Below the pieces are notes generated by a model. That model saw only the letters and a list, made by a program, of their open reading frames with translations. It searched no databases and was not told the origin of the DNA. Of a stretch of 52,751 nucleotides of DNA, positions 22,036 to 51,002 are shown piece by piece. The stretch lies in NCBI RefSeq assembly GCF_018066915.1, contig NZ_JAGPVV010000362.1, positions 1 through 52,751 of the forward strand. The letters are read 5' to 3'. The stretch comes from Roseovarius sp. Its GTDB lineage: Bacteria; Pseudomonadota; Alphaproteobacteria; Rhodobacterales; Rhodobacteraceae. Within the stretch, counting starts at the first letter, position 1. Every line of letters begins with the position of its first letter. A program made the translations under genes and the position numbers.

Positions 22036-23172
22036 TCAAGCGGCCAGAGGGGTGGGAAGCGCTGCGGGGCGCGCGGTGAAGAGCGAGGTGGGGCGAGCAA
22101 CGAGCATGATATGTTCGGGTGCAATCACCATGCCATCGGCCAGCACCAGCGCGCGCTGCATGACGTTTTCCAGCTCGCGCACATTGCCGGGCCAGCTATG
22201 TGCGGCGAGGATATCGCAGGCCTCGGGCGACAGGAGCGGCGTGGGCAGACCCTCGGGCGTATGGCGGCGCAGCATGGCCTGGGCCAGCACCGGCACATCC
22301 TGCGGACGCGCAGAGAGGGCCAGCGTTTCCAGCGGGAACACGTTGAGGCGGTAATAGAGGTCTTCGCGGAAGGTGCCGCGGGCGATTTCGCACTCCATAT
22401 CGCGGTTGGAGGTGGCGAGGATGCGGACATCGACCGGGGTTTCGGTCTGGCTGCCGAGGGGGGTCACGACCTTTTCCTGAATGACGCGCAGGAGTTTGGC
22501 CTGAAGCGCCATCGGCATTTCGGAAATCTCGTCGAGCAACAGCGTGCCGCCGTCGGCGGCGCGCAGATAACCCTTGTTGGCGGTGTTGGCGCCGGTGAAG
22601 GCGCCCTTTTCATGGCCGAAGAGCAGCGCTTCGAGCATGTTTTCGGGGATCGCGGCGCAGTTGATCGCGACAAAGGGTTTGTCGGCGCGCGGCGAGGCCT
22701 GATGAATGAGGCGCGAGAGCACTTCCTTGCCGCTGCCGGTGGGGCCGTTGATGAAGACGCTGACGTCAAAGCGGGCGACGCGGCGGGCCATGTCGATCAG
22801 CGCGCCCGAGTTCGGATCGGCGGCGACCATGGTGCCAAAGGGCGCGGCCAAGAGATCGGCCAAGGCCATCAGTGCGGCATCGCGCAGGGCGGGCAGGCCG
22901 CTGTCGGGCAGCGACACGGTCAGCATGCGCCCACCCAGATCCTCGCGCAGGGCGAATTCGGGGGCCTGACCTTCGATCACCACGATGCGTTTCGCGCCCA
23001 GTTTGCGGGCCAGTTCCACCAGCGCGCGCTGGTCGGTCACAGGGGCACCCTGCACCAGCGTATGACAGGTGGGCTGATAGCCGATGCGGACATTCAGACG
23101 ACGCCCGTCGAGCAGGGCCTTGAGGGCCTGAGCCTGAGGGAAATTCGCGGCGGTGATGCAGATGTCGGCCAT
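22036..23172 (-). CDS. fleT: Sigma-54 activator without DNA-binding domain, FleT-like
   Basis: 378 residues. A poorly conserved N-terminal domain (1-115) precedes a complete AAA+ sigma-54 interaction domain: Walker A GPTGSGKE (about 143-150), the sigma-54 loop GAFTGA, Walker B GGTLLLDEISE and the ending SWPGNVRELENVMQRAL. The protein then stops about 30 residues later with a proline/alanine tail, and no Fis-type helix-turn-helix follows. FleT of R. sphaeroides has the same truncated design and works with FleQ to activate flagellar operons. The start at 23172 follows GAGG; a longer frame upstream is not used because the sigma-54 promoter at 23207-23222 lies inside it. Confidence 0.88.
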   Translation of the reverse strand: MADICITAANFPQAQALKALLDGRRLNVRIGYQPTCHTLVQGAPVTDQRALVELARKLGAKRIVVIEGQAPEFALREDLGGRMLTVSLPDSGLPALRDAALMALADLLAAPFGTMVAADPNSGALIDMARRVARFDVSVFINGPTGSGKEVLSRLIHQASPRADKPFVAINCAAIPENMLEALLFGHEKGAFTGANTANKGYLRAADGGTLLLDEISEMPMALQAKLLRVIQEKVVTPLGSQTETPVDVRILATSNRDMECEIARGTFREDLYYRLNVFPLETLALSARPQDVPVLAQAMLRRHTPEGLPTPLLSPEACDILAAHSWPGNVRELENVMQRALVLADGMVIAPEHIMLVARPTSLFTARPAALPTPLAA

Positions 23173-23206
23173 GGGAAACCTCGTTGATTGCGATATGAAA
23201 TGAGTA

Positions 23207-23222
23207 AGCAGGGATCGTGCCA
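23207..23222 (-). promoter_or_regulatory. Sigma-54 (-24/-12) promoter of fleT-fliEFGHIJ
   Basis: On the minus strand TGGCACGATCCCTGCT, against the consensus TGGCACG-N4-TTGCW, with one mismatch and the required ten bases between GG and GC. The expected start of transcription is near 23196, leaving a leader of about 24 nt before the fleT ATG. Confidence 0.82.
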
Positions 23223-23370
23223 CACGGGTTTTGGGGGCATTTTGGCCCCGGATTGGCCCAAAGTTGTGATTTTGCAGAGGGTTTCGGCCGGTTGCGCCGG
23301 GAAAACGTCGCAACTCCGACGAAAAGGGCGGGTGTCGACTGTCGTGTGTCGAGGCTTCGTCAGTCGGGTA

Positions 23371-23444
23371 GAGCGCGGGCGCTGTCCTTTGCACAGACCA
23401 GCACTTTCAGCGCGGGATCGCGCCAAAAGCGAGCGCCCGCGCTC
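23371..23444. repeat. 13-bp perfect inverted repeat in the fleT / chemotaxis divergent region
   Basis: GAGCGCGGGCGCT (23371-23383) and its exact reverse complement (23432-23444) enclose 48 bp that contain a smaller stem (GCGCG...CGCGC). A second inverted pair, GTTGCG/CGCAAC, lies at 23291-23314. Together they could form a cruciform-like or RNA structure ahead of the 102-residue gene, or bind an activator such as FleQ. No T-run follows, so a simple terminator is less likely. Confidence 0.5.
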
Positions 23445-30113: not shown

Positions 30114-33100
30114 ATGATGGACGAGATGGACGAAATCTGGATGCTGTATGCCGATGACGGCGCGCAGTCCCTTGACGCGATGGAAGCGGCGCTGGATGCC
30201 CTCAACGGGGGCAAAGGCGACATGGGTGCGCATATCGGCGCGCTGTTCCGGGCTGTCCATACGTTCAAGGGCAACTCGCGCGTGCTGGGATTGGCGCAGG
30301 TCGAGGGGCTGGCGCATCTGGCCGAGGACCTGATCGGGCTGGTGCGCGATGAGGGCGTGCCGCTGAGTGGCGAGATCACCGATATCCTGATGCGCACCGG
30401 CGACGCGTTGCGCGGCATGCTGGAAGAGACCGCGGACACCCGCGCCGATGTGGAGCCGGGGCCGACGGCGGGGCTCAAGCAGGATCTGCGCGCGATGATC
30501 GGGCGGTTGACAGGGCGCGAAACCGAAGCGGCGGCGCCTGCACCGGCGCCGCAGGCCGAGGGTGCGCCGCAGAAAGACGCCATGGAAGAAGCACCGGCAC
30601 CGGCTGCTGCGCCAAAGCCCAAGGTTCCGGCCTTTGATATGGGCCTTGCGGGGTTGCTGGATCAGTTGGATGGCGGCGATGGCACGGATTTCGACGAATT
30701 CGAAGGGGATGACGACGAGGCGGAGGTTGCAGACGACGACGCGCCCGAGTTTGAGCCGGAACCGGAGTTTGGCGAGGCCGTAGAGCCTGAAGTGGTGGTG
30801 GAGCCTGAGCCTCCGCTGGAGCTTGAGCCTGAGCCTGAGCCTGAGCAAGCGCCCGCGCCGCAGGTCAAGACCGTGGCCGAGGTGACAGAGGGCAAGCTCT
30901 TGGCCCCTGACCCCGAGCATCACAAGATTTTCAACGACATGGCCGACAAGACCTGCGCCGCGCTGGATGCGCTGATTGCGGATTGGGCCGAGGACAGCAG
31001 CCCGAAAGCGCGCCGGCAGGCGGACAATCTGCACTATGCCGCCGGGCAATTGAACCTTGCCGATTGGCTGGCGCTGTTGGGGCCGTTCCTGAGCGCGGAT
31101 GCGCCGGACCTGGGCGCGACGCGTGATCTGAGTGCCGCGATGCGCCGTCTGCTGAGCGGTGAGACAGAGCCGGAGGCTGTGCCCGACGCGCTACCCGAAG
31201 CGCCCGCGCCAGACCCCGTGGCCGAGCCTGCGCCCGTGGCGGTCCACGCGCCAGAACCCGAAGCCGCGCCCAAACCTGCGCCTGCAAAGAAGGCGGTGCC
31301 GCGTGCGAAACCCGTGGTCGAGGTCACGGAAGGCAAGCTGCGGGCGGATCAGACCTATCACCAGATCTTTGCCGATATGGTGGCGAAGTCGCTCGAGAAA
31401 CTGGACGCGCTCTGTGCGAGTTGGTCGGAGGCCACCAGCCTTGCCGCGCTGCGCAAGGAAGCCGATGGCCTGTGCTATGCCGCGCAACAGCTAGATTTGG
31501 CCAGTTGGGTGGCGCTGCTGGGTCCGATGGCCGAGGCCAAAGGCATGAGCCACGCCGCAGCCGAAGGCCATGTGGCGGCGCTGCGCGCGCATGCGGCACA
31601 GGAGTTTGGCGGCGGTGATGCTGCCCCGGTGCAATCGCGCGGTCCGGTTGATCCGGCCGCGGATGGCCGGGCATTTTTCCTTGTCATGGCAGAGCTTTAC
31701 CCGCTGATTGCCGAGCAGGGCACGCGGATGTCGGGCGATGCGCCCTGCACCGTGGCCGAGCGGCGAGACCTCGCCGAGCGGATCGCCGATCAGGCCGCGC
31801 CGCGCGGGTTTGTTCGCCTTGTGGACAGCGCGCTTCGGTTGTCGCAAGAACCGGCGGGCCATGCTTACCGCGCCGCCGAACTGGCGCTTTATGAGGAATT
31901 GGTCAGCGTCGAGCGCAGCCTGCCCGCGTCGGTTTTTGATGCCGAGATGATGGCACCGAGCCAGATTTTGGGGGCCTGGTGCGCCGATCATATCTTTGAG
32001 ACGCTGCAAAGCCTGCGCAAGGGGCTCGAGGCGCGGGGCGCCGAGGCGGGGGCCAACTGGTTCCCGGCCTTTGACACGCTGATGCGGCAGGTGCATTTCG
32101 CCTGTCTGAATTACCGGATCGACACGGCCTCGCAACTTACCATGGCGTTGATCGACCTCTTTGCGCGGGTGCGCATCGACCAGAAAGCGCCGGATGTGAT
32201 CCTGCTCCAGATGGGGCGCGGTTTTGTCGATACGATGGAACTGGTGTTCGATGCGCTGGATCAGGGCGACACGCCCGACACCTCGCGGATCGAAAAGATG
32301 TTCGAAGAGGCGACCAACGCCTGTTTCGTCGCCAGTGGCGTGATGACCGCCAAGAGCATCGAGACACGTTTGGGCCTGCCGCCGGAATTCCACCGGGTGA
32401 TGTCGCCCGAGAGCGTCAAGACCGCGCATGAGGCGATCCGGGAGGGTCTGCATTTCTACGTGCTGCGGGCTGATCTGAATGACGATGACGCGCTGGCGCA
32501 GGGGTTCCTTGAATGGATCACCACGGGCGTGGTGCGGATGATCACCAACGTCACGGTGTTTCTGGACAAGGCGACGCTGTTTGATTTTCTCGTGGCGTCA
32601 ACCCTTGAAGAAGACCGGATGGTCGAGCGGCTGGCGATGCTGGACCCGTCGGGTGCGCGGCTGATGATGGCGCAGGCCCTGCGGGTGCGCGAAGCGCCCG
32701 AGGTCGAGGCGGCAGAGCCGGACTCGCTCGATCTGATCCCGATGTCCGAGGTGGGCGACAGTCTCGCGCTGCTCGAGGCGGTGGGGGCGATTTCCGCCAG
32801 CCACGCGCAGCTCGAGCATGAGTTGACGCAGCTTGCCTCGGTCGATCTGGTGCAGGATGTGCTGGAGGCGCTGCGCGCCGCCGGTGTGGGCGAGTTGGAG
32901 CAGCGCGTGCGCTCTGTCCTGCGCGACCGGCTGGAGCAGCACAATCTGCGGCTTCAGGAAATCAGCGAGTCGGGGGCGCAGCTCTCGGCAGAGCTGTCGC
33001 ATCTGCAACAAGAGAGCGTGGCGCAACGGTCGCGCCCTGCCGAAGTGTTGTTGCGCCCGCTCAAGGCCTATGTGGCCACGCGCGCGCGCAAGATCGGCGT

Positions 33101-33839
33101 CGATGCCTCTGTCACCTATGTGGGGGGCGATGTGATGCTCGACCAGATGTTGATCGAGGAACTGCGCGGGCCGCTCAAGACCTTGGTCAACCTGCGGCTG
33201 GCCGGGGAATATCCGGCGTCACGGTTCCATATCTCGGTCGAGGCCGAGAGCGATCACGTGCGGGTCGAGTTGACCGACAACAGCCCCGAGCCTGCGATGG
33301 CCCCTGCCTATGGTGCGCTGGCCGATGAGATGGCGCGCAAGAAAGGCGCGCTGCGTCGGGTCAGCCTGCCGGCCGGGGCCGGGGTGCGGTTTCACCTGCG
33401 AGTGCCGCAGCACATGATCGTGCTCGATGGCATGGTCGTGCGGGTGGGGCATGTGCGCTATGTGCTGCCGGTGGATGCGATCCACCGTATTCTTCAGACC
33501 GACCGGCTCTTGCCGGTGTCGGCCTCGGGGGCGACACGGATGCTGCATATCGACGAGGGCGCGCTGGTGCCCGTGCATCCCTTGATGCCGGAGCCCGCTG
33601 CCAGTTCAGGAGGCGCGCGGCTCTATGTGGTGCTGAGCAGCAACGAGACGCGCATTGCCATTCCGGTGGATGAACTTTTGGGTCAGCAGCTTGTGATGCT
33701 GCGCCCCTTGCAAGGCGTGCTGTCGGGCATGCGCGACATGAGTGGCATCGCCATCCTGTCGGGGGGCGAGGTGGGCATGGTTGTGGCCGTCAGTGCCCTG
33801 GCTTCGGGCGATGCGCGCAAGGCCAGCGTTGCGGCCTGA
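30114..33839 (+). CDS. cheA3: Atypical CheA with Hpt and CheW-like ends but no working ATPase, CheA3-like
   Basis: 1241 residues. The N-terminal Hpt domain (1-115) has the phosphorylation motif VHTFKGNSRVLGL, with H49 as acceptor. An acidic Pro/Glu linker (about 200-250) follows. Two copies of a module of about 93 residues (257-350 and 404-497) share VTEGKL, HxIFxDM, LDAL, YAAxQLxLAxWxALLGP. A long unassigned middle runs to about 950. Then comes a remnant of an ATPase domain lacking the N, G1 and G2 motifs (LTDNSPEP near 1053 where DDGxG would be), and a CheW-like P5 end (about 1090-1235). CheA3 of R. sphaeroides has this layout, takes phosphate from CheA4 and has a CheY6 phosphatase in its middle. 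Confidence 0.9.
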   Translation: MMDEMDEIWMLYADDGAQSLDAMEAALDALNGGKGDMGAHIGALFRAVHTFKGNSRVLGLAQVEGLAHLAEDLIGLVRDEGVPLSGEITDILMRTGDALRGMLEETADTRADVEPGPTAGLKQDLRAMIGRLTGRETEAAAPAPAPQAEGAPQKDAMEEAPAPAAAPKPKVPAFDMGLAGLLDQLDGGDGTDFDEFEGDDDEAEVADDDAPEFEPEPEFGEAVEPEVVVEPEPPLELEPEPEPEQAPAPQVKTVAEVTEGKLLAPDPEHHKIFNDMADKTCAALDALIADWAEDSSPKARRQADNLHYAAGQLNLADWLALLGPFLSADAPDLGATRDLSAAMRRLLSGETEPEAVPDALPEAPAPDPVAEPAPVAVHAPEPEAAPKPAPAKKAVPRAKPVVEVTEGKLRADQTYHQIFADMVAKSLEKLDALCASWSEATSLAALRKEADGLCYAAQQLDLASWVALLGPMAEAKGMSHAAAEGHVAALRAHAAQEFGGGDAAPVQSRGPVDPAADGRAFFLVMAELYPLIAEQGTRMSGDAPCTVAERRDLAERIADQAAPRGFVRLVDSALRLSQEPAGHAYRAAELALYEELVSVERSLPASVFDAEMMAPSQILGAWCADHIFETLQSLRKGLEARGAEAGANWFPAFDTLMRQVHFACLNYRIDTASQLTMALIDLFARVRIDQKAPDVILLQMGRGFVDTMELVFDALDQGDTPDTSRIEKMFEEATNACFVASGVMTAKSIETRLGLPPEFHRVMSPESVKTAHEAIREGLHFYVLRADLNDDDALAQGFLEWITTGVVRMITNVTVFLDKATLFDFLVASTLEEDRMVERLAMLDPSGARLMMAQALRVREAPEVEAAEPDSLDLIPMSEVGDSLALLEAVGAISASHAQLEHELTQLASVDLVQDVLEALRAAGVGELEQRVRSVLRDRLEQHNLRLQEISESGAQLSAELSHLQQESVAQRSRPAEVLLRPLKAYVATRARKIGVDASVTYVGGDVMLDQMLIEELRGPLKTLVNLRLAGEYPASRFHISVEAESDHVRVELTDNSPEPAMAPAYGALADEMARKKGALRRVSLPAGAGVRFHLRVPQHMIVLDGMVVRVGHVRYVLPVDAIHRILQTDRLLPVSASGATRMLHIDEGALVPVHPLMPEPAASSGGARLYVVLSSNETRIAIPVDELLGQQLVMLRPLQGVLSGMRDMSGIAILSGGEVGMVVAVSALASGDARKASVAA

Positions 33840-45901: not shown

Positions 45902-45913
45902 TATCTTTAGATA
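45902..45913. promoter_or_regulatory. Palindrome TATCTTTAGATA upstream of fleQ
   Basis: A near-perfect 12-bp dyad 40 bp before the first fleQ start codon. The same sequence, read on the other strand, is found upstream of the SUOX-like/hybrid kinase operon (50284-50295). No other copy was seen in intergenic DNA here. Binding protein unknown. Confidence 0.5.
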
Positions 45914-45952
45914 ATCGGCGGACTCCTTTTGCACGCATAGGTAACGTCCGAG

Positions 45953-47071
45953 ATGCTGTTAATGAGGATGCATATCCTTAAGCATACCGGATCGCGTAGC
46001 ATGACAAGTTATTGGCCGACCTCTTCCATCACGGAACAGTTTCCCATCGACCTGCGGCTGGATGCCGTGCTGGTCGGTGATGCGCCGGTGATGCGGCGGT
46101 TGAAACAGGCGATCAGCATCATCGCCCCGAGCGATGTGCCGGTTCTGATCAACGGACCCACTGGCGCGGGCAAAGAGGTGGTGGCCAATGCGATGCACCT
46201 AATGTCGGGGCGCACGGGGCCGATGATTCCGGTCAATTGCGGGGCCATTCCCGCCGACCTGCTCGAATCCGAACTCTTTGGCCATGAAAAGGGCTCGTTC
46301 ACGGGCGCTACGGCGCAGCGGATCGGGTTGATCGAACAGGCCGAGGGCGGCACGCTCTTTCTCGACGAGATTGGCGAGACGCCGCTGCATGTGCAGGTCA
46401 AGTTGCTGCGTGCGCTCGAAACCCAGACCATCCAACGGGTCGGGGGCGGCGCGCCGATCCCGGTCAATTTCCGCCTACTGAGTGCCACGCACCGCGATTT
46501 GCAGCAAGAAGTCATCCAAAAGCGGTTCCGCGAGGACCTGTTGTTCCGCATCGAGGTGTTCAGCCTGTGCGTGCCGGCCCTTTGTGAGCATGCCGAGGAT
46601 ATTCCGCAAATCCTGCGGGCGATGGAGCAGGGCAGCCGGGGCGGCAGCACGCTGCAACTGACCCCCGGTGCACTGGCGCTGCTCATGGCGCAGGACTGGC
46701 CGGGCAATGTGCGCGAATTGCGCAACTTTCATGACCGGGCGCAAATCCTCTTTCGCAACCGCACCATCACCGAAGAAGAAGCGCGCATCGCCATGGTGTC
46801 GCGCCTGAGTTTTGCCGGGGGTGCCCCGGTGGCGCCCGAGCCGGTGGTCGATACATTGCCGGAGGGTGTGACCGATCTCAAGGGGATGCTGGCCGGAAGC
46901 GGCACACTCGACCTGCGCACCATGTTGCAGCGGGTCGAGGTCAAGGTGATCCAATCGGCGCTGGAACTGAGCGAGGGGCGCGTTACCCGTGCGGCGGAAA
47001 TGCTGCGGCTCAAGCGGACCACCCTCATCAGCCGCATGCAGAAGCTGGGGCTTGAATCAGACGGTCTCTGA
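45953..47071 (+). CDS. fleQ: Sigma-54 dependent activator FleQ-like
   Basis: 372 residues from the first ATG. No receiver domain: a short N-terminus leads straight to the AAA+ domain with Walker A GPTGAGKE (about 64-71), sigma-54 loop GSFTGA (a common variant of GAFTGA), Walker B GGTLFLDEIGE and DWPGNVRELRNFHDRAQ. The C-terminal Fis-type HTH reads LELSEGRVTRAAEMLRLKRTTLISRMQKLGL. It is the likely master activator that pairs with the HTH-less FleT. The start is uncertain: ATGs at 45953, 45962 and 46001 lack good ribosome sites, and an inverted repeat (45959-45981, AGGAT-GCAT-ATCCT) covers the first two. Its last 15 bp overlap the convergent kinase gene. Confidence 0.88.
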   Translation: MLLMRMHILKHTGSRSMTSYWPTSSITEQFPIDLRLDAVLVGDAPVMRRLKQAISIIAPSDVPVLINGPTGAGKEVVANAMHLMSGRTGPMIPVNCGAIPADLLESELFGHEKGSFTGATAQRIGLIEQAEGGTLFLDEIGETPLHVQVKLLRALETQTIQRVGGGAPIPVNFRLLSATHRDLQQEVIQKRFREDLLFRIEVFSLCVPALCEHAEDIPQILRAMEQGSRGGSTLQLTPGALALLMAQDWPGNVRELRNFHDRAQILFRNRTITEEEARIAMVSRLSFAGGAPVAPEPVVDTLPEGVTDLKGMLAGSGTLDLRTMLQRVEVKVIQSALELSEGRVTRAAEMLRLKRTTLISRMQKLGLESDGL

Positions 47072-49690
47072 GGTCGCGCCGGAATTTCCATCCGCAGGCA
47101 GAAGGGGTGCGAAATCGCTGCGCGCCTCGTTCAAGAGCGCCCGTGCAGCGGCGACGAGCCCGGTGGTGCCGGGGTCTGTGCCCGCCCGCGCGAGGGTTTC
47201 TGCCTCTGACAGGGTTTCTGTCAGCTCTTCCAGCCCGATGACGCCGGTCGATCCCACCGCCTTGTGAATGATCGCCGCCTTGTCGTCGAGCGTGAGGCCG
47301 GTGTCGATCATGGCCGCGAAGGCAGCTTCGGCATCGCTGAGCGTGGTGCGGACCAGCCGCCGCGCGGTATCGTGGCCCACCATTTTGCCCAGATCGTGCA
47401 GCAGGGTCGCGGCATCGCGGCTCTCGGTCACAAGATCCTCGTCCGCATCACCTTCTGCGGTTTCGACGGCGGCGCTCTCCTTGCGCCGCGTGTCGCGGAT
47501 TGCGCGGGCGAGATGTTCCTGGCTGACGGGCTTGGTCAAGATATTGTCCATCGCTGCCGCCTGCTCGTCGCCGGTATGCGCGCCGATGAGGGCGGTCACG
47601 CCGATGATCACCGCCTGCGCGGAGCGCCCGCCAGAGGCGCGGATCATCCTGGCCGATGTCGGCCCGTCCATCACCGGCATCGAGAAATCCATCAGGATCA
47701 CGTCAAAGGCCTCGGTCGCGGCCTTGTCCAGCGCCTCTTGGCCGTTCATGGCGGTGGCGGGATTATGGCCCATGCGCCGGACCATTTCGGTCATCAGGGT
47801 CAGGTTGATGTCATTGTCATCAACGACAAGGATACGCCGGGGCGTGTCCGTGATGAGGCGCTCTGCCGCCTTGGGTGCGGGTGCGGGGCCTTGCTGCGGC
47901 GCTTGTGACAGGCGCAGCGGGATCGTGAAGAAAAAGCGGCTGCCAACGCCCGGTGTGCTGTATAGGCCCAGAACGCCGCCTTGCCGTTCGATCGCGAGCT
48001 TGGCAATGGGCAGGCCAAGGCCCGTGCCCATGGCGGAATTCACCTCGCTGCGGCCAACGGTCTCGAAGCTCTCGAAAATGCGCTTTTGATCCTCGGGGGC
48101 AATGCCGATGCCGGTATCCTCGACCTCGACCGTGAGGTCGAGATTGTCGGGCGCGTGGCCGCCCAAGCTGAGCCGGATGGTGATGGTGCCATTCTTGGTG
48201 AATTTGGCCGCATTGCCGGCAAGATTATAGAGCGTGCGGGAAAAGGCATTGGGCAGACCTTCCAGCCGGTGCAGGTCAAAGTCGCCTTGGGTGATCAGTT
48301 CGATCCGGTTATTGGCCTTTTTGGCGAGGGGCTGCAATTCGTCCACGATGTCGGCGGCGATACGCGCGGGGCTGAAGGGCACGGGCGTTTCCGTGCTCTC
48401 GCCCAGACGGGTCAGTTCCAGCACGTCATCGACCTGAACGAGCGCGCGGGCGCTGCAATCGCGGGCGGTTTTCAGCAAGGCGCGGTTTTCGGGATACATG
48501 TCGGTTTCGTTGATCAACGAAAGCGAGGCCATCAGCCCATGCAGCGGCGTGCGCATCTCATGGCTCATGGTGGCGAGGAACATGCTCTTGGCGCGGGCGG
48601 CCTGTTCAGCCTGAACCAGGGCTTCACGCAGATTGGTTTCGGCCTCGACCTGAACCGAGATATCACGGATGAAGAGAATGACGATGGGATTGCCGGAAAT
48701 GTCGTGATCCTCGACCATCGCGAAATCCACCGGAATCTCGCGGCCCACAGCGCTGCGGCAGGCGGCGACAAAGGGGGCCTTTTCCCGAGGTGCCAGACCC
48801 TCGACCGCGTCGCGCGGCACGGAGGGATCGAAGATCAGGATATCCTCGGCACGCATGGTCTGCAGGTCTTCGGCGGTATAGCCCAGAAGGCGTTGCGCGC
48901 GGGCGTTGCTGTAGAGGATGCGTGATTGCGGATCGGTCACGATGACCGCGTTCATGGTCGAATTGAACGCGGTCGAGAGCATGGCCGCGATGCGCCCTGT
49001 CTCGGCGGTGCGGCGCTCCAACTCGCGCCAGATGCGCACCGCCAGAACCGCGCCGATGGCCATCAGGCAGAAGAGAAGCAGGGATTGGATGAAAAAGCGC
49101 ACAAAGAGGCGTTTTTCCTCTCCGCGCGCGCGGGAGGTTTCGACGGTGATTTCCTGAAGCCCGGCCACGGTGATGTCGCGGACCATCGGATAGGTGTCTT
49201 CGACGGCGGTGCGGAACGCCTCGAGTGCCGCCGGATCATCGCCTTTGATGGCGTCGATCCGGTTGGCAAGACGTTCGCGCGCGACCTTGAGCCGCTCGAC
49301 CTGGTTCAGCAGGTCCTCGGATACCTCCATGCGTTGCAGGGTCGCGCTGAAGATGTCTACGCGGCTGTAAAAGATATCAAACTCTCGCTTGACCATGGCC
49401 AGCGTTTCCGGAGTGAGCGGTGCCGTGATATCGGGCCGCGTCACCAGAACTGCCGCATCGAGTTTCTGCATCAGCCCCAGATGATCCACCTCGAGCTGGG
49501 CCACGACCCAGCCGCCATTGTCGGTGTTGGCCGAGCGGATATCTTCGAGGCGCTGCTGAAAGGCCATCGCGCTGACGAGCAGCGCGATGCTGGCCACAAG
49601 CATCAGGAACAGCAGGATTTGCGCCGAAAGACGCTTGGTCGTGTTAAAGACCTTGTCTGGACCAGAACCTGTGGGGGGCGGAGTCAGCAC
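47057..49690 (-). CDS. Hybrid sensor histidine kinase (TM-4HB-TM-PAS-HisKA-HATPase-REC-Hpt)
   Basis: 877 residues. Two transmembrane helices (21-44 and 197-220) enclose a periplasmic helical sensor of about 150 residues. Then come a PAS domain (about 235-350), HisKA with H377 in SHEMRTPLHG, HATPase with N box LYNLAGNAAKFTKNG and DTGIGIAPED, a receiver with phosphorylation site D668 in VILMDFSMPVMDGP, and a C-terminal Hpt with H809 in IIHKAVGSTGVIGL. A complete phosphorelay except for the output regulator, which is not next to it. GTG start at 49690. It follows the SUOX-like gene by three bases, suggesting that this periplasmic protein signals through the kinase. Confidence 0.9.
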   Translation of the reverse strand: MLTPPPTGSGPDKVFNTTKRLSAQILLFLMLVASIALLVSAMAFQQRLEDIRSANTDNGGWVVAQLEVDHLGLMQKLDAAVLVTRPDITAPLTPETLAMVKREFDIFYSRVDIFSATLQRMEVSEDLLNQVERLKVARERLANRIDAIKGDDPAALEAFRTAVEDTYPMVRDITVAGLQEITVETSRARGEEKRLFVRFFIQSLLLFCLMAIGAVLAVRIWRELERRTAETGRIAAMLSTAFNSTMNAVIVTDPQSRILYSNARAQRLLGYTAEDLQTMRAEDILIFDPSVPRDAVEGLAPREKAPFVAACRSAVGREIPVDFAMVEDHDISGNPIVILFIRDISVQVEAETNLREALVQAEQAARAKSMFLATMSHEMRTPLHGLMASLSLINETDMYPENRALLKTARDCSARALVQVDDVLELTRLGESTETPVPFSPARIAADIVDELQPLAKKANNRIELITQGDFDLHRLEGLPNAFSRTLYNLAGNAAKFTKNGTITIRLSLGGHAPDNLDLTVEVEDTGIGIAPEDQKRIFESFETVGRSEVNSAMGTGLGLPIAKLAIERQGGVLGLYSTPGVGSRFFFTIPLRLSQAPQQGPAPAPKAAERLITDTPRRILVVDDNDINLTLMTEMVRRMGHNPATAMNGQEALDKAATEAFDVILMDFSMPVMDGPTSARMIRASGGRSAQAVIIGVTALIGAHTGDEQAAAMDNILTKPVSQEHLARAIRDTRRKESAAVETAEGDADEDLVTESRDAATLLHDLGKMVGHDTARRLVRTTLSDAEAAFAAMIDTGLTLDDKAAIIHKAVGSTGVIGLEELTETLSEAETLARAGTDPGTTGLVAAARALLNEARSDFAPLLPADGNSGATSETV

Positions 49691-49693
49691 GGG

Positions 49694-50188
49694 TCATTCC
49701 GCGAGAATGTCGATCTTGTTCAACTGCCACACACTGAGGGTAAAATACTCTTCGCTCTGATAGCGGGTGTCGGAATCATAGGGAAACACCAGCCAGAGCG
49801 GTCCTTTTTCGCGCACCGAAAAGGCCGCATCGTCGATCCGGATGGCGAGGATCGGCACGTTTTCTTCCATCCGCGCCTCGGGGAAGGTCACGTTGTAATC
49901 GTTGATGGCATAGACCCGCAGGTTGCCGGGCGTGCTGCCTGCGGCATCGAGCACGGTTTTCAGCGAGGGGCCCGAAAAGGTTTTGGGCGTCGTGTCGGTC
50001 CAGATGGTCGTTGTCTCAAAGCTCTGTTGCGGCAGGGCGAGAAGATCGGCCTCGGTGAAGGTCTTGGTCGCACCGCTGCGCAGATCGTTCACGGTCAGGA
50101 TGACCTCGTCGGCGAAAGCAGGGCTTGCGACGGTTTGGGCAAGGGTAAGGCCAAGGGCCGCGAGGGTCAGAAAGAATCTACGATTCAT
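49694..50188 (-). CDS. Periplasmic SUOX-fold (molybdopterin oxidoreductase-like) protein without cysteine
   Basis: 164 residues with a signal peptide (MNRRFFLTLAALGLTLAQTVASPAFA). The mature part matches the oxidoreductase molybdopterin-binding fold: LTVNDLRSGATKTFTEADLLALPQQSFETTTIW, then TFSGPSLKTVLDAAG, LRVYAINDYNVTFP and KGPLWLVFPYD. The mature protein contains no cysteine at all, so the conserved thiolate that binds molybdenum in this fold is missing and catalysis is unlikely. Next to a hybrid kinase on the same strand (three bases apart), it is best read as a ligand-binding partner. A second ATG at 50200 is in frame. Confidence 0.8.
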   Translation of the reverse strand: MNRRFFLTLAALGLTLAQTVASPAFADEVILTVNDLRSGATKTFTEADLLALPQQSFETTTIWTDTTPKTFSGPSLKTVLDAAGSTPGNLRVYAINDYNVTFPEARMEENVPILAIRIDDAAFSVREKGPLWLVFPYDSDTRYQSEEYFTLSVWQLNKIDILAE

Positions 50189-50265
50189 GATGTGTCTCAT
50201 TTGGATACCGGAACAAGGCGATGTCGCCGTGAGTGTTCTAGCAGAGTTTTTGGGGAGGCGGGTGC

Positions 50266-50295
50266 TATCTAAAGGGATAGGCATATCTAAAGATA
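50266..50295. promoter_or_regulatory. Repeated TATCTAAAG motif upstream of the SUOX-like/kinase operon
   Basis: TATCTAAAG occurs twice, at 50266-50274 and 50284-50292. The second copy is part of TATCTAAAGATA (50284-50295), the same dyad as upstream of fleQ (45902-45913). The outer arms GCTATCT and AGATAGC also pair. It lies about 80-110 bp upstream of the SUOX-like start. Two sites at about two helical turns suggest cooperative binding by a dimer. Confidence 0.55.
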
Positions 50296-50417: not shown

Positions 50418-51002
50418 TCACATCACCGGCATAACGCGCAGGCCCTGAGCGATGCGGCGGGCCCAATTGGTGATATGCGGTTCGAATCGCAGGCGGGCAT
50501 CGGGCAGGGCGGCCATCAAGACCATGATCGCGCGCTCGCGCCCGTCCTGCGGGGCCTTGAGACCCAGCCGGGCATGGTGCCAGATGCCATCGCCAAAGCA
50601 CACCTCGCCATCGCGGTCCTGCAAGAGGCGCGCGGTCCATTTGGTGCCGAGGGTGTCAAAAGCCATGTCATAGGGCGGTTCCTGGGCGGTCTGGGTGCGC
50701 ACCGCATGGGTCATCAGGAAATCATAGAGCACATCGGGATCGAGCAAGAGGATGTCTGATCCGACCTCGATCCAGCCTTCGGCGATGCGGCGGTCAAGCG
50801 CGCACCATTCCTGCTGGCCCTGCGCCCGAAAGGCCAGACGCTCGCCCTCGCCCGTGGCCTCGGCGATCTCATAGCTGCGCGCGCCCAAGGTGAGGTGGGC
50901 AAACGGTGCGCTGGCGCTGCAGACATGCCCATGGCTGGCGCAGCGGGGACGGCCCTCGGCACGGGGGGCGAAGGTATCGGTCATCAGTGTCTGGCTGTGC
51001 AT
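50418..51002 (-). CDS. Hypothetical protein of 194 residues
   Basis: I do not recognise a family. The protein begins with histidine and cysteine residues (RPRCASHGHVCSASAPFAHL), has a mixed alpha/beta body (EWCALDRRIAEGWIEVGSDILLLDPDVLYDFLMTH) and a central WTARLLQDRDGEVCFGDGIWHHARLGL, and no signal peptide or membrane segment. The coding frame is chosen because it is free of stops over 194 codons, and the opposite frames give unlikely proteins. An in-frame ATG at 50984 is an alternative start; neither has a good ribosome site. Divergent from the motF-like operon. Confidence 0.6.
   Translation of the reverse strand: MHSQTLMTDTFAPRAEGRPRCASHGHVCSASAPFAHLTLGARSYEIAEATGEGERLAFRAQGQQEWCALDRRIAEGWIEVGSDILLLDPDVLYDFLMTHAVRTQTAQEPPYDMAFDTLGTKWTARLLQDRDGEVCFGDGIWHHARLGLKAPQDGRERAIMVLMAALPDARLRFEPHITNWARRIAQGLRVMPVM

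Follow-up and report, generated by a model that had tools for sequence, protein, structure and literature searches.

The closest described relatives of the sensory locus analyzed here are the PruR-DTB operons, which encode a TorS-like kinase and are widespread in Proteobacteria (review PMC13259868, with Greenwich et al., 2024, PNAS as the primary source); one motif, WX7E, is found in the vast majority of DTB kinases, though not in all (PMC13259868). The terms response regulator and phosphorelay are absent from the main text of that review, and no output regulator, operator or target of a PruR-DTB system is found in its available parts or in literature listings, a coverage that does not extend to the primary PNAS paper. 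On the flagellar side, the hierarchy of Cereibacter (Rhodobacter) sphaeroides starts at FleQ, and the control of fleQ itself is not stated in the available parts of PMC7277832 and PMC11999139; none of the papers listed by a literature search on what controls the fleQ promoter in Rhodobacter deals with that subject, judged by title and start of abstract. A survey of Rhodobacterales, in the parts available, uses the cluster of C. sphaeroides as the reference for fla3 and describes a spread of fla2 and fla3 through horizontal transfer (PMC12363192).

The window, by which we mean the whole analyzed stretch of 52,751 nucleotides from a Roseovarius species, carries a flagellar island next to a pair of sensory genes. 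The island comprises fliI, fliG, fliF, a FleT-like activator, chemotaxis genes, flgG, flgH, flgI, flgL and fleQ; the fleQ product is a sigma-54 activator with a Fis-type HTH, encoded in the same island as FleT and flagellar genes, and would act as an activator of sigma-54 flagellar promoters. A palindrome recurs upstream of fleQ and of the sensory pair. We read it as an operator to which a NarL/FixJ-type response regulator would bind; this regulator would be the output of a PruR-DTB phosphorelay and would activate both the pruR-kinase operon and fleQ; to this reading, built on sequence comparison, we assign a probability of roughly 0.7. The features on which the argument draws are the following (coordinates in the window):

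22036..23394, minus strand: FleT-like activator of the sigma-54 type, near fliF, fliG and fliI; no match to a Fis-type HTH.
45902..45913, no strand assigned: predicted palindromic operator TATCTTTAGATA before fleQ; G023 and G093 have the same sequence.
45936..45941, plus strand: predicted -10 element of fleQ, CATAGG, 22 bp after the site; placed by the offset from the operon promoters, poor by sequence.
46001..47071, plus strand: fleQ, sigma-54 activator (AAA+, lid, Fis-type HTH); no receiver match.
47057..49690, minus strand: DTB-type hybrid histidine kinase with a WX7D N-terminal region, PAS, HisKA, HATPase, receiver and a sub-threshold Hpt match.
49694..50188, minus strand: PruR-like periplasmic protein, probably pterin-binding (labeled SUOX in the original prediction).
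50235..50240, minus strand: predicted -10 element of the pruR-kinase operon, TAGAAC, assigned by eye.
50266..50277, no strand assigned: predicted weaker operator copy, reading TCCCTTTAGATA on the operon strand; promoter-proximal, 18 bp from the main site.
50284..50295, no strand assigned: predicted palindromic operator TATCTAAAGATA of the pruR-kinase operon; same 12 bases in 4/4 species of the island clade.

The start of fleQ is likely at 46001 and not at 45953, as the methionine at residue 17 is invariant in 6 aligned orthologues. Two further reading frames of the window are recorded here as observations: a 1241-aa ORF in the chemotaxis cluster (30114-33839), which matches CheA models of NCBIfam, most strongly at the C-terminus; and a 194-aa protein (50418-51002), which is kept beside the operon in the sister species and for which neither Pfam nor NCBIfam gives a match within the limits applied.

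The original prediction had described TATCTTTAGATA at 45902-45913 and TATCTAAAGATA at 50284-50295 as exact reverse complements, and they are indeed so at both positions, sharing the core TATC-N4-GATA and both lying in intergenic DNA by our reading of the ORFs; the further copy that it had placed at 50266 is present in weaker form (TATCTAAAGGGA, 50266-50277, 2 mismatches). A genome-wide search, one of the checks it had proposed, finds the exact pattern TATCTWWAGATA twice in the home assembly (4,020,717 bases in 363 contigs), once upstream of fleQ and once upstream of the "SUOX"/hybrid-kinase operon, with no exact copies scattered elsewhere; about 0.055 copies per 4.02 Mb are expected (from the base composition of the window alone), and the pattern written backwards, used as a control, has 0. 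When up to 2 mismatches are allowed, the window holds 3 matches against 0.25 expected, a count reached in 0 of 100 shuffles; across the whole genome there are 39 such places versus 89 for the backwards control, so loose matches are uninformative and only exact or matrix-supported sites are used in what follows. An exact copy occurs in 12 of 59 other genomes searched, and in 8 of 35 within the same genus. The same-genus relatives hold 10 exact copies, 4 of which lie at the pruR-kinase operon or at fleQ (two in G023, one each in G021 and G029); for the other 6, no tie to operon or fleQ is seen among the ORFs read by eye in about 3 kb around each. The exact sites in G005, G020, G027, G030 and G032 were set aside, having no recognizable flagellar or PruR neighbor. 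A literature search with the literal 12-mer, judged by title, gave nothing related. Two overlapping partial sites, AATCTTAAGATATTGAAAGATA, were also seen elsewhere in the home genome (C266:2562-2583, locus L005).

Comparison with relatives, likewise proposed as a check, shows both sites kept in three sister species (G023, G093, G071). The main operon site is identical in 4/4 species, and the fleQ site is unchanged in G023 and G093; only G071 among the four has a changed fleQ site, TATCTTTAGAGA, with one mismatch. In this same species an insertion sequence (DDE transposase, DUF772; L093:9455-10818) interrupts the weaker operator copy, its ends sharing a 4-base overlap, and parts the pruR-kinase operon from the main operon site, which lies on its far side. 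The combination of insertion and changed fleQ site would look like a loosened regulon, in a single case.

As far as its sequence can tell, the protein that the original prediction had called SUOX is no oxidase and belongs with the pterin-binding PruR proteins: its 164 residues include 0 Cys, it falls below the cut-off of the SUOX family (Pfam PF00174), and a profile of 10 homologues matches the solved structures 7kos, 7kou, 7rkb, 7kp2 and 7kom at E = 7e-34 to 2e-24, the first of which is named PruR (7KOS; PMC13259868). In PruR proteins a tryptophan takes the place of the Mo-ligating cysteine; three tryptophans are invariant in the 10 homologues, and a hydrophobic N-terminus, seen by eye, and the length are to be set beside the PruR expectation of about 170 aa plus a secretion signal. 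Its ligand is probably a reduced pterin. The kinase has TorS as its best NCBIfam match (257 bits, below the cut-off of 676.5); its Hpt match is sub-threshold (E = 0.0015), and for this reason we infer, rather than read off, the order kinase, receiver, Hpt, response regulator. Its periplasmic motif, WVVAQLEVD, is WX7D in the home clade instead of WX7E; since the review gives WX7E for the vast majority, the kinase is a variant and not a plain member of the DTB type. WX7E is found in the kinases of L102, L104, L107, L108, L110, L111 and L338.

In distant relatives, the palindrome sits between the operon and a divergent gene for a NarL-family response regulator. In G023 this regulator has a receiver and a GerE HTH above cut-off (62.1 and 60.7 bits) and NarL as its nearest solved structure (E = 7e-22); it is below the cut-off of every NCBIfam model among the 25 listed of 84 matched (best 91 bits versus 390). 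A search of the genus with the SUOX-like protein finds a PruR-like gene in 63/84 genomes, and 20 genus regions were taken, mostly the best PruR matches, with the lower-ranked G029 added for its exact site. The site lies at most 450 bp upstream of PruR in 10/20 of these regions at up to 2 mismatches and in 7/20 at up to 1. One region, L104, offers only 256 bp upstream; L103 and L261 cover a single place in G021. A regulator with GerE HTH, transcribed away from the pair, is found by tblastn in 11/20; in 10 of them it stands directly beside the pair or almost so, and in L108 about 2.7 kb away.

A search for the regulator family across 394 genomes, with 8 candidates scored per genome, gives 17 genomes and 18 loci at E <= 1e-45. 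The regulator (50-71% identity) adjoins PruR and/or the kinase in G395, G204, G268, G475, G344, G490 and G255, and it adjoins flhB in the sister species G023, G071 and G093, where it comes after that gene, and in G032, G330 and G134 (in G071, fliM, fliR, flhB and the regulator gene stand together); neighboring the sensory genes in 7 genomes and flhB in 6, it is one gene that joins the sensor pair to a flagellar export gene. PruR or the kinase is within reach of the regulator at 12/18 family loci, although in L252 no PruR gene is recognized, and in the gap at these 12 the palindrome occurs in 8 at up to 1 mismatch and in 10 at up to 2, including L263, where the site is distant from the PruR gene. 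L258 and L262, whose regulators carry a methionine in the recognition helix, are without the palindrome in the gap; L262 has TATCGAAAGGATA, one base longer. Plasmid records (8, all under 60% identity, two of them viewed) gave distant kinases only.

At fleQ, the site was scored with a matrix made from 16 operon sites, none of the home clade, which had been picked by likeness to the originally predicted pattern. FleQ orthologues were listed in 23/394 genomes at E <= 1e-105, a cut that we set, with 5 candidates scored per genome; as the regulator and FleQ searches scored 8 and 5 candidates per genome, absence from either list is not strict. (A profile search with the FleQ alignment returned generic sigma-54 activators from many phyla, at least 80 loci, and was not used.) Of 26 fleQ upstream regions scanned, the genus members included and G197 (L305, stops in frame) omitted, those of regulator carriers score 21.3 (home genome, G023, G093), 14.2 (G071), 19.8 (G089) and 18.4 (G204), the home genome being taken as a carrier by inference; weak scores come from the carriers G344 (9.0), G268 (8.9) and G134 (5.4), with shuffle p of 0.07-0.10, and the 17 regions of non-carriers reach at most 7.6. 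In a rank test with the home and sister species collapsed into one (6 versus 17), carriers differ from the others at p = 2e-5, and moving G474 to the carriers raises this to 0.004; with the home clade left out, the values are 8e-5 and 0.011. G474 has a regulator with Met helix and no fleQ site in the upstream region. The regulator and FleQ of this type also co-occur, in 4/9 carriers versus 19/385 genomes (p = 9e-4) and, at a looser regulator cut-off, in 5/17 versus 18/377 (p = 0.002), the home genome being entered here as a non-carrier. All these p values come from several tests on one set of related genomes, with carrier cut-offs chosen after seeing the lists.

The original prediction had held that one regulator acts on both promoters, and this gains support from two sides: in relatives the palindrome separates the operon from a divergent regulator gene, and a matrix trained on operon sites finds the sites at fleQ in genomes that carry the regulator. 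It had also named two observations that would speak against it, many copies scattered in coding DNA and lack of conservation at fleQ in relatives. Neither is borne out: the home genome has no scattered exact copies, and the sister species as well as G089 and G204 retain the fleQ motif, although G344, G268 and G134 have it in weak form and G474 lacks it. How far the link to fleQ extends is a separate matter. It could be a trait of a recent clade and a few others instead of a general output of the sensor system, given that this fleQ, at 93% identity or more, occurs in 4/84 genus genomes (the home genome included) versus 63/84 with a PruR-like gene; but full TATC-N4-GATA sites stand before fleQ in G089 and G204, whose FleQ orthologues are only about 50% identical. 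We regard such a restriction as unlikely, though worth keeping in mind, and it is compatible with the operator reading.

A third site, TATCCAAAGATA, lies on contig C125 (30318-30329) near flgC, flgD and flgE, which were assigned by family models, with adjoining flgB and flgF assigned by eye. All four species share it letter for letter, although their flanking sequences differ, and it is oriented towards a 55-codon ORF. Of the 39 genomic matches at up to 2 mismatches, it ranks 7 by matrix score (14.8); conservation was examined for this site, and places on C252, C266, C258 and C336 score higher.

The position of the site relative to the promoter bears on the sign of regulation. In a selection of 8 operon promoters with one site each, -10-like hexamers show a peak 22-24 bp after the site (P = 0.018 over all offsets). 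The test comprised 8 of the 16 matrix operon regions and 6 fleQ regions, with G344 left out; the sites of G134 and G268 were chosen by eye, that of G134, ACACTTAAGATA, not being its best-scoring 12-mer. The 6 fleQ promoters alone, over all offsets, show no significant peak (P = 0.38); taken together with the operon promoters they give P = 0.0055, and 5 of them examined at the offset set by the operons (G344 and G071 left out) give P = 0.015. The center of the site would thereby fall near -41, overlapping the -35 region, as for an activator. Sites centered near -41, 22-24 bp before the -10, are typical of class II activators, and NarL-type response regulators are often activators. The same overlap with -35 is what a repressor might use, as a protein bound there could block the polymerase, and the response regulator, or another factor, would then turn fleQ and the sensor operon off under signal; against this, the 22-24 bp spacing to the -10-like hexamer fits class II activators and the family leans towards activation, both on general knowledge, and we think repression improbable.

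The presence of the palindrome goes with a residue in the recognition helix of the regulator. Regulators with a methionine there (K-M-H/R) have the site in 12/14 loci, those with a leucine in 0/5; L258 and L263 carry the methionine by eye but are missed by the pattern, and with both included the first count is 12/16. The scan covered 330 bp, and the site of L252 is outside that stretch. A rank test of helix against site gives p = 0.004, with L258, L260 and L263, uncaught by the pattern, counted as non-Met. The kinases divide similarly: WX7D in 13/14 of the Met-type loci (L256 has neither WX7D nor WX7E) versus WX7E in 4/5 of the Leu-type loci (L106 has no match). Exceptions to this split are L256, L258, L262 and a pair on contig C307 of the home genome. 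Tentatively, WX7D kinase, Met helix and TATC-N4-GATA may form one co-evolving class, as against a WX7E/Leu class with another operator.

In the home assembly (363 contigs), the regulator and a close flhB were not found. The neighborhood of the regulator in G023 matches contig C304 of the home genome except for the last 345 bases of that contig (L247:12408-12752), which match none of the other fetched loci save another copy of the same contig and lie at the very place where the regulator and flhB would be expected. The missing regulator and flhB are probably due to an assembly gap, which we assume since the home genome has many further genes of the flagellar set; real loss or rearrangement is possible. 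The regulator on C307 (L116) was considered as the partner and rejected, being divergent from another kinase, with Leu in its recognition helix and a wider spacing in its TATC...GATA element. This locus is a second kinase/regulator pair of this type, and no PruR gene is seen between the two genes; it combines the Leu helix with a WX7D kinase and has the intergenic element TATCTTTCGGGATA, and its intergenic palindrome reads CCCCTATC...GATAGGGG.

The absence of the regulator gene from the home assembly, together with Met-type loci that have no site, would suit a different regulator, for instance a one-component repressor, which binds the palindrome at both promoters while the response regulator is linked to it by neighborhood only. 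We hold this to be quite improbable, as the site lies between the regulator and PruR or the kinase in 10/12 family regions (at up to 2 mismatches), tracks a residue of the recognition helix, and in its fleQ version tracks the presence of the regulator. Chance likeness of two AT-rich promoter elements, for which one might cite the 6/10 exact copies in relatives that have no tie to operon or fleQ, is highly improbable in view of 2 copies observed against 0.055 expected, 0 for the control, and conservation across species and genera.

Returning to the response regulator as the factor that binds the palindrome, the following sequence of events may be proposed. The periplasmic PruR-like protein, probably loaded with reduced pterin, would signal to the hybrid kinase; phosphate would pass from the receiver of the kinase to the Hpt and on to the response regulator, whose own gene in this genome would lie in the assembly gap. 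A dimer of the regulator would bind TATC-N4-GATA, overlapping -35, and activate the pruR-kinase operon, in an autoregulatory manner, as well as fleQ; FleQ with sigma-54 would then start the flagellar gene cascade. Comparison between genomes supports the idea that fleQ and the "SUOX"/kinase pair form one regulon closed by the output regulator of the phosphorelay, with the candidate regulator encoded outside the window. The further step, that a pterin signal, through a PruR-DTB phosphorelay that has a NarL-type regulator of its own, and through an autoregulatory operator held in common with fleQ, controls the decision for a FleQ flagellum, is one we would put forward as possible, with somewhat more doubt than belief. 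If the model is true, a periplasmic, possibly pterin, signal may decide on the building of a FleQ-type flagellum, and the locus would be a candidate for control above fleQ in a FleQ/FleT flagellar system; for PruR-DTB, the output regulator, the operator and the target are all three proposed here from sequence.

Compared with known systems, the locus is like PruR-DTB in its two-gene operon, with a periplasmic SUOX-like protein lacking the Mo-binding cysteine, followed by a membrane kinase that combines a periplasmic domain like that of DcpA with PAS, HisKA, HATPase and receiver domains; it differs in having WX7D for WX7E, a linked NarL-type response regulator, a predicted DNA operator and a proposed flagellar target. 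With PruR-DcpA of Agrobacterium tumefaciens it shares a related PruR protein and a periplasmic receptor region, but DcpA acts on c-di-GMP, whereas the partner here is a kinase and the output apparently transcription. The regulator resembles the NarL/FixJ family in its receiver and GerE HTH, while the proposed 12-bp operator differs from the NarL site, which has a 7-2-7 arrangement. Finally, as in the Fla1 system of C. sphaeroides, where FleQ is the master sigma-54 activator and FleT lacks a DNA-binding domain (PMC7277832, PMC11999139, in the parts available), both activators are present; here FleQ and FleT share one window with fliF, fliG and fliI, and a candidate site and regulator are proposed for fleQ.
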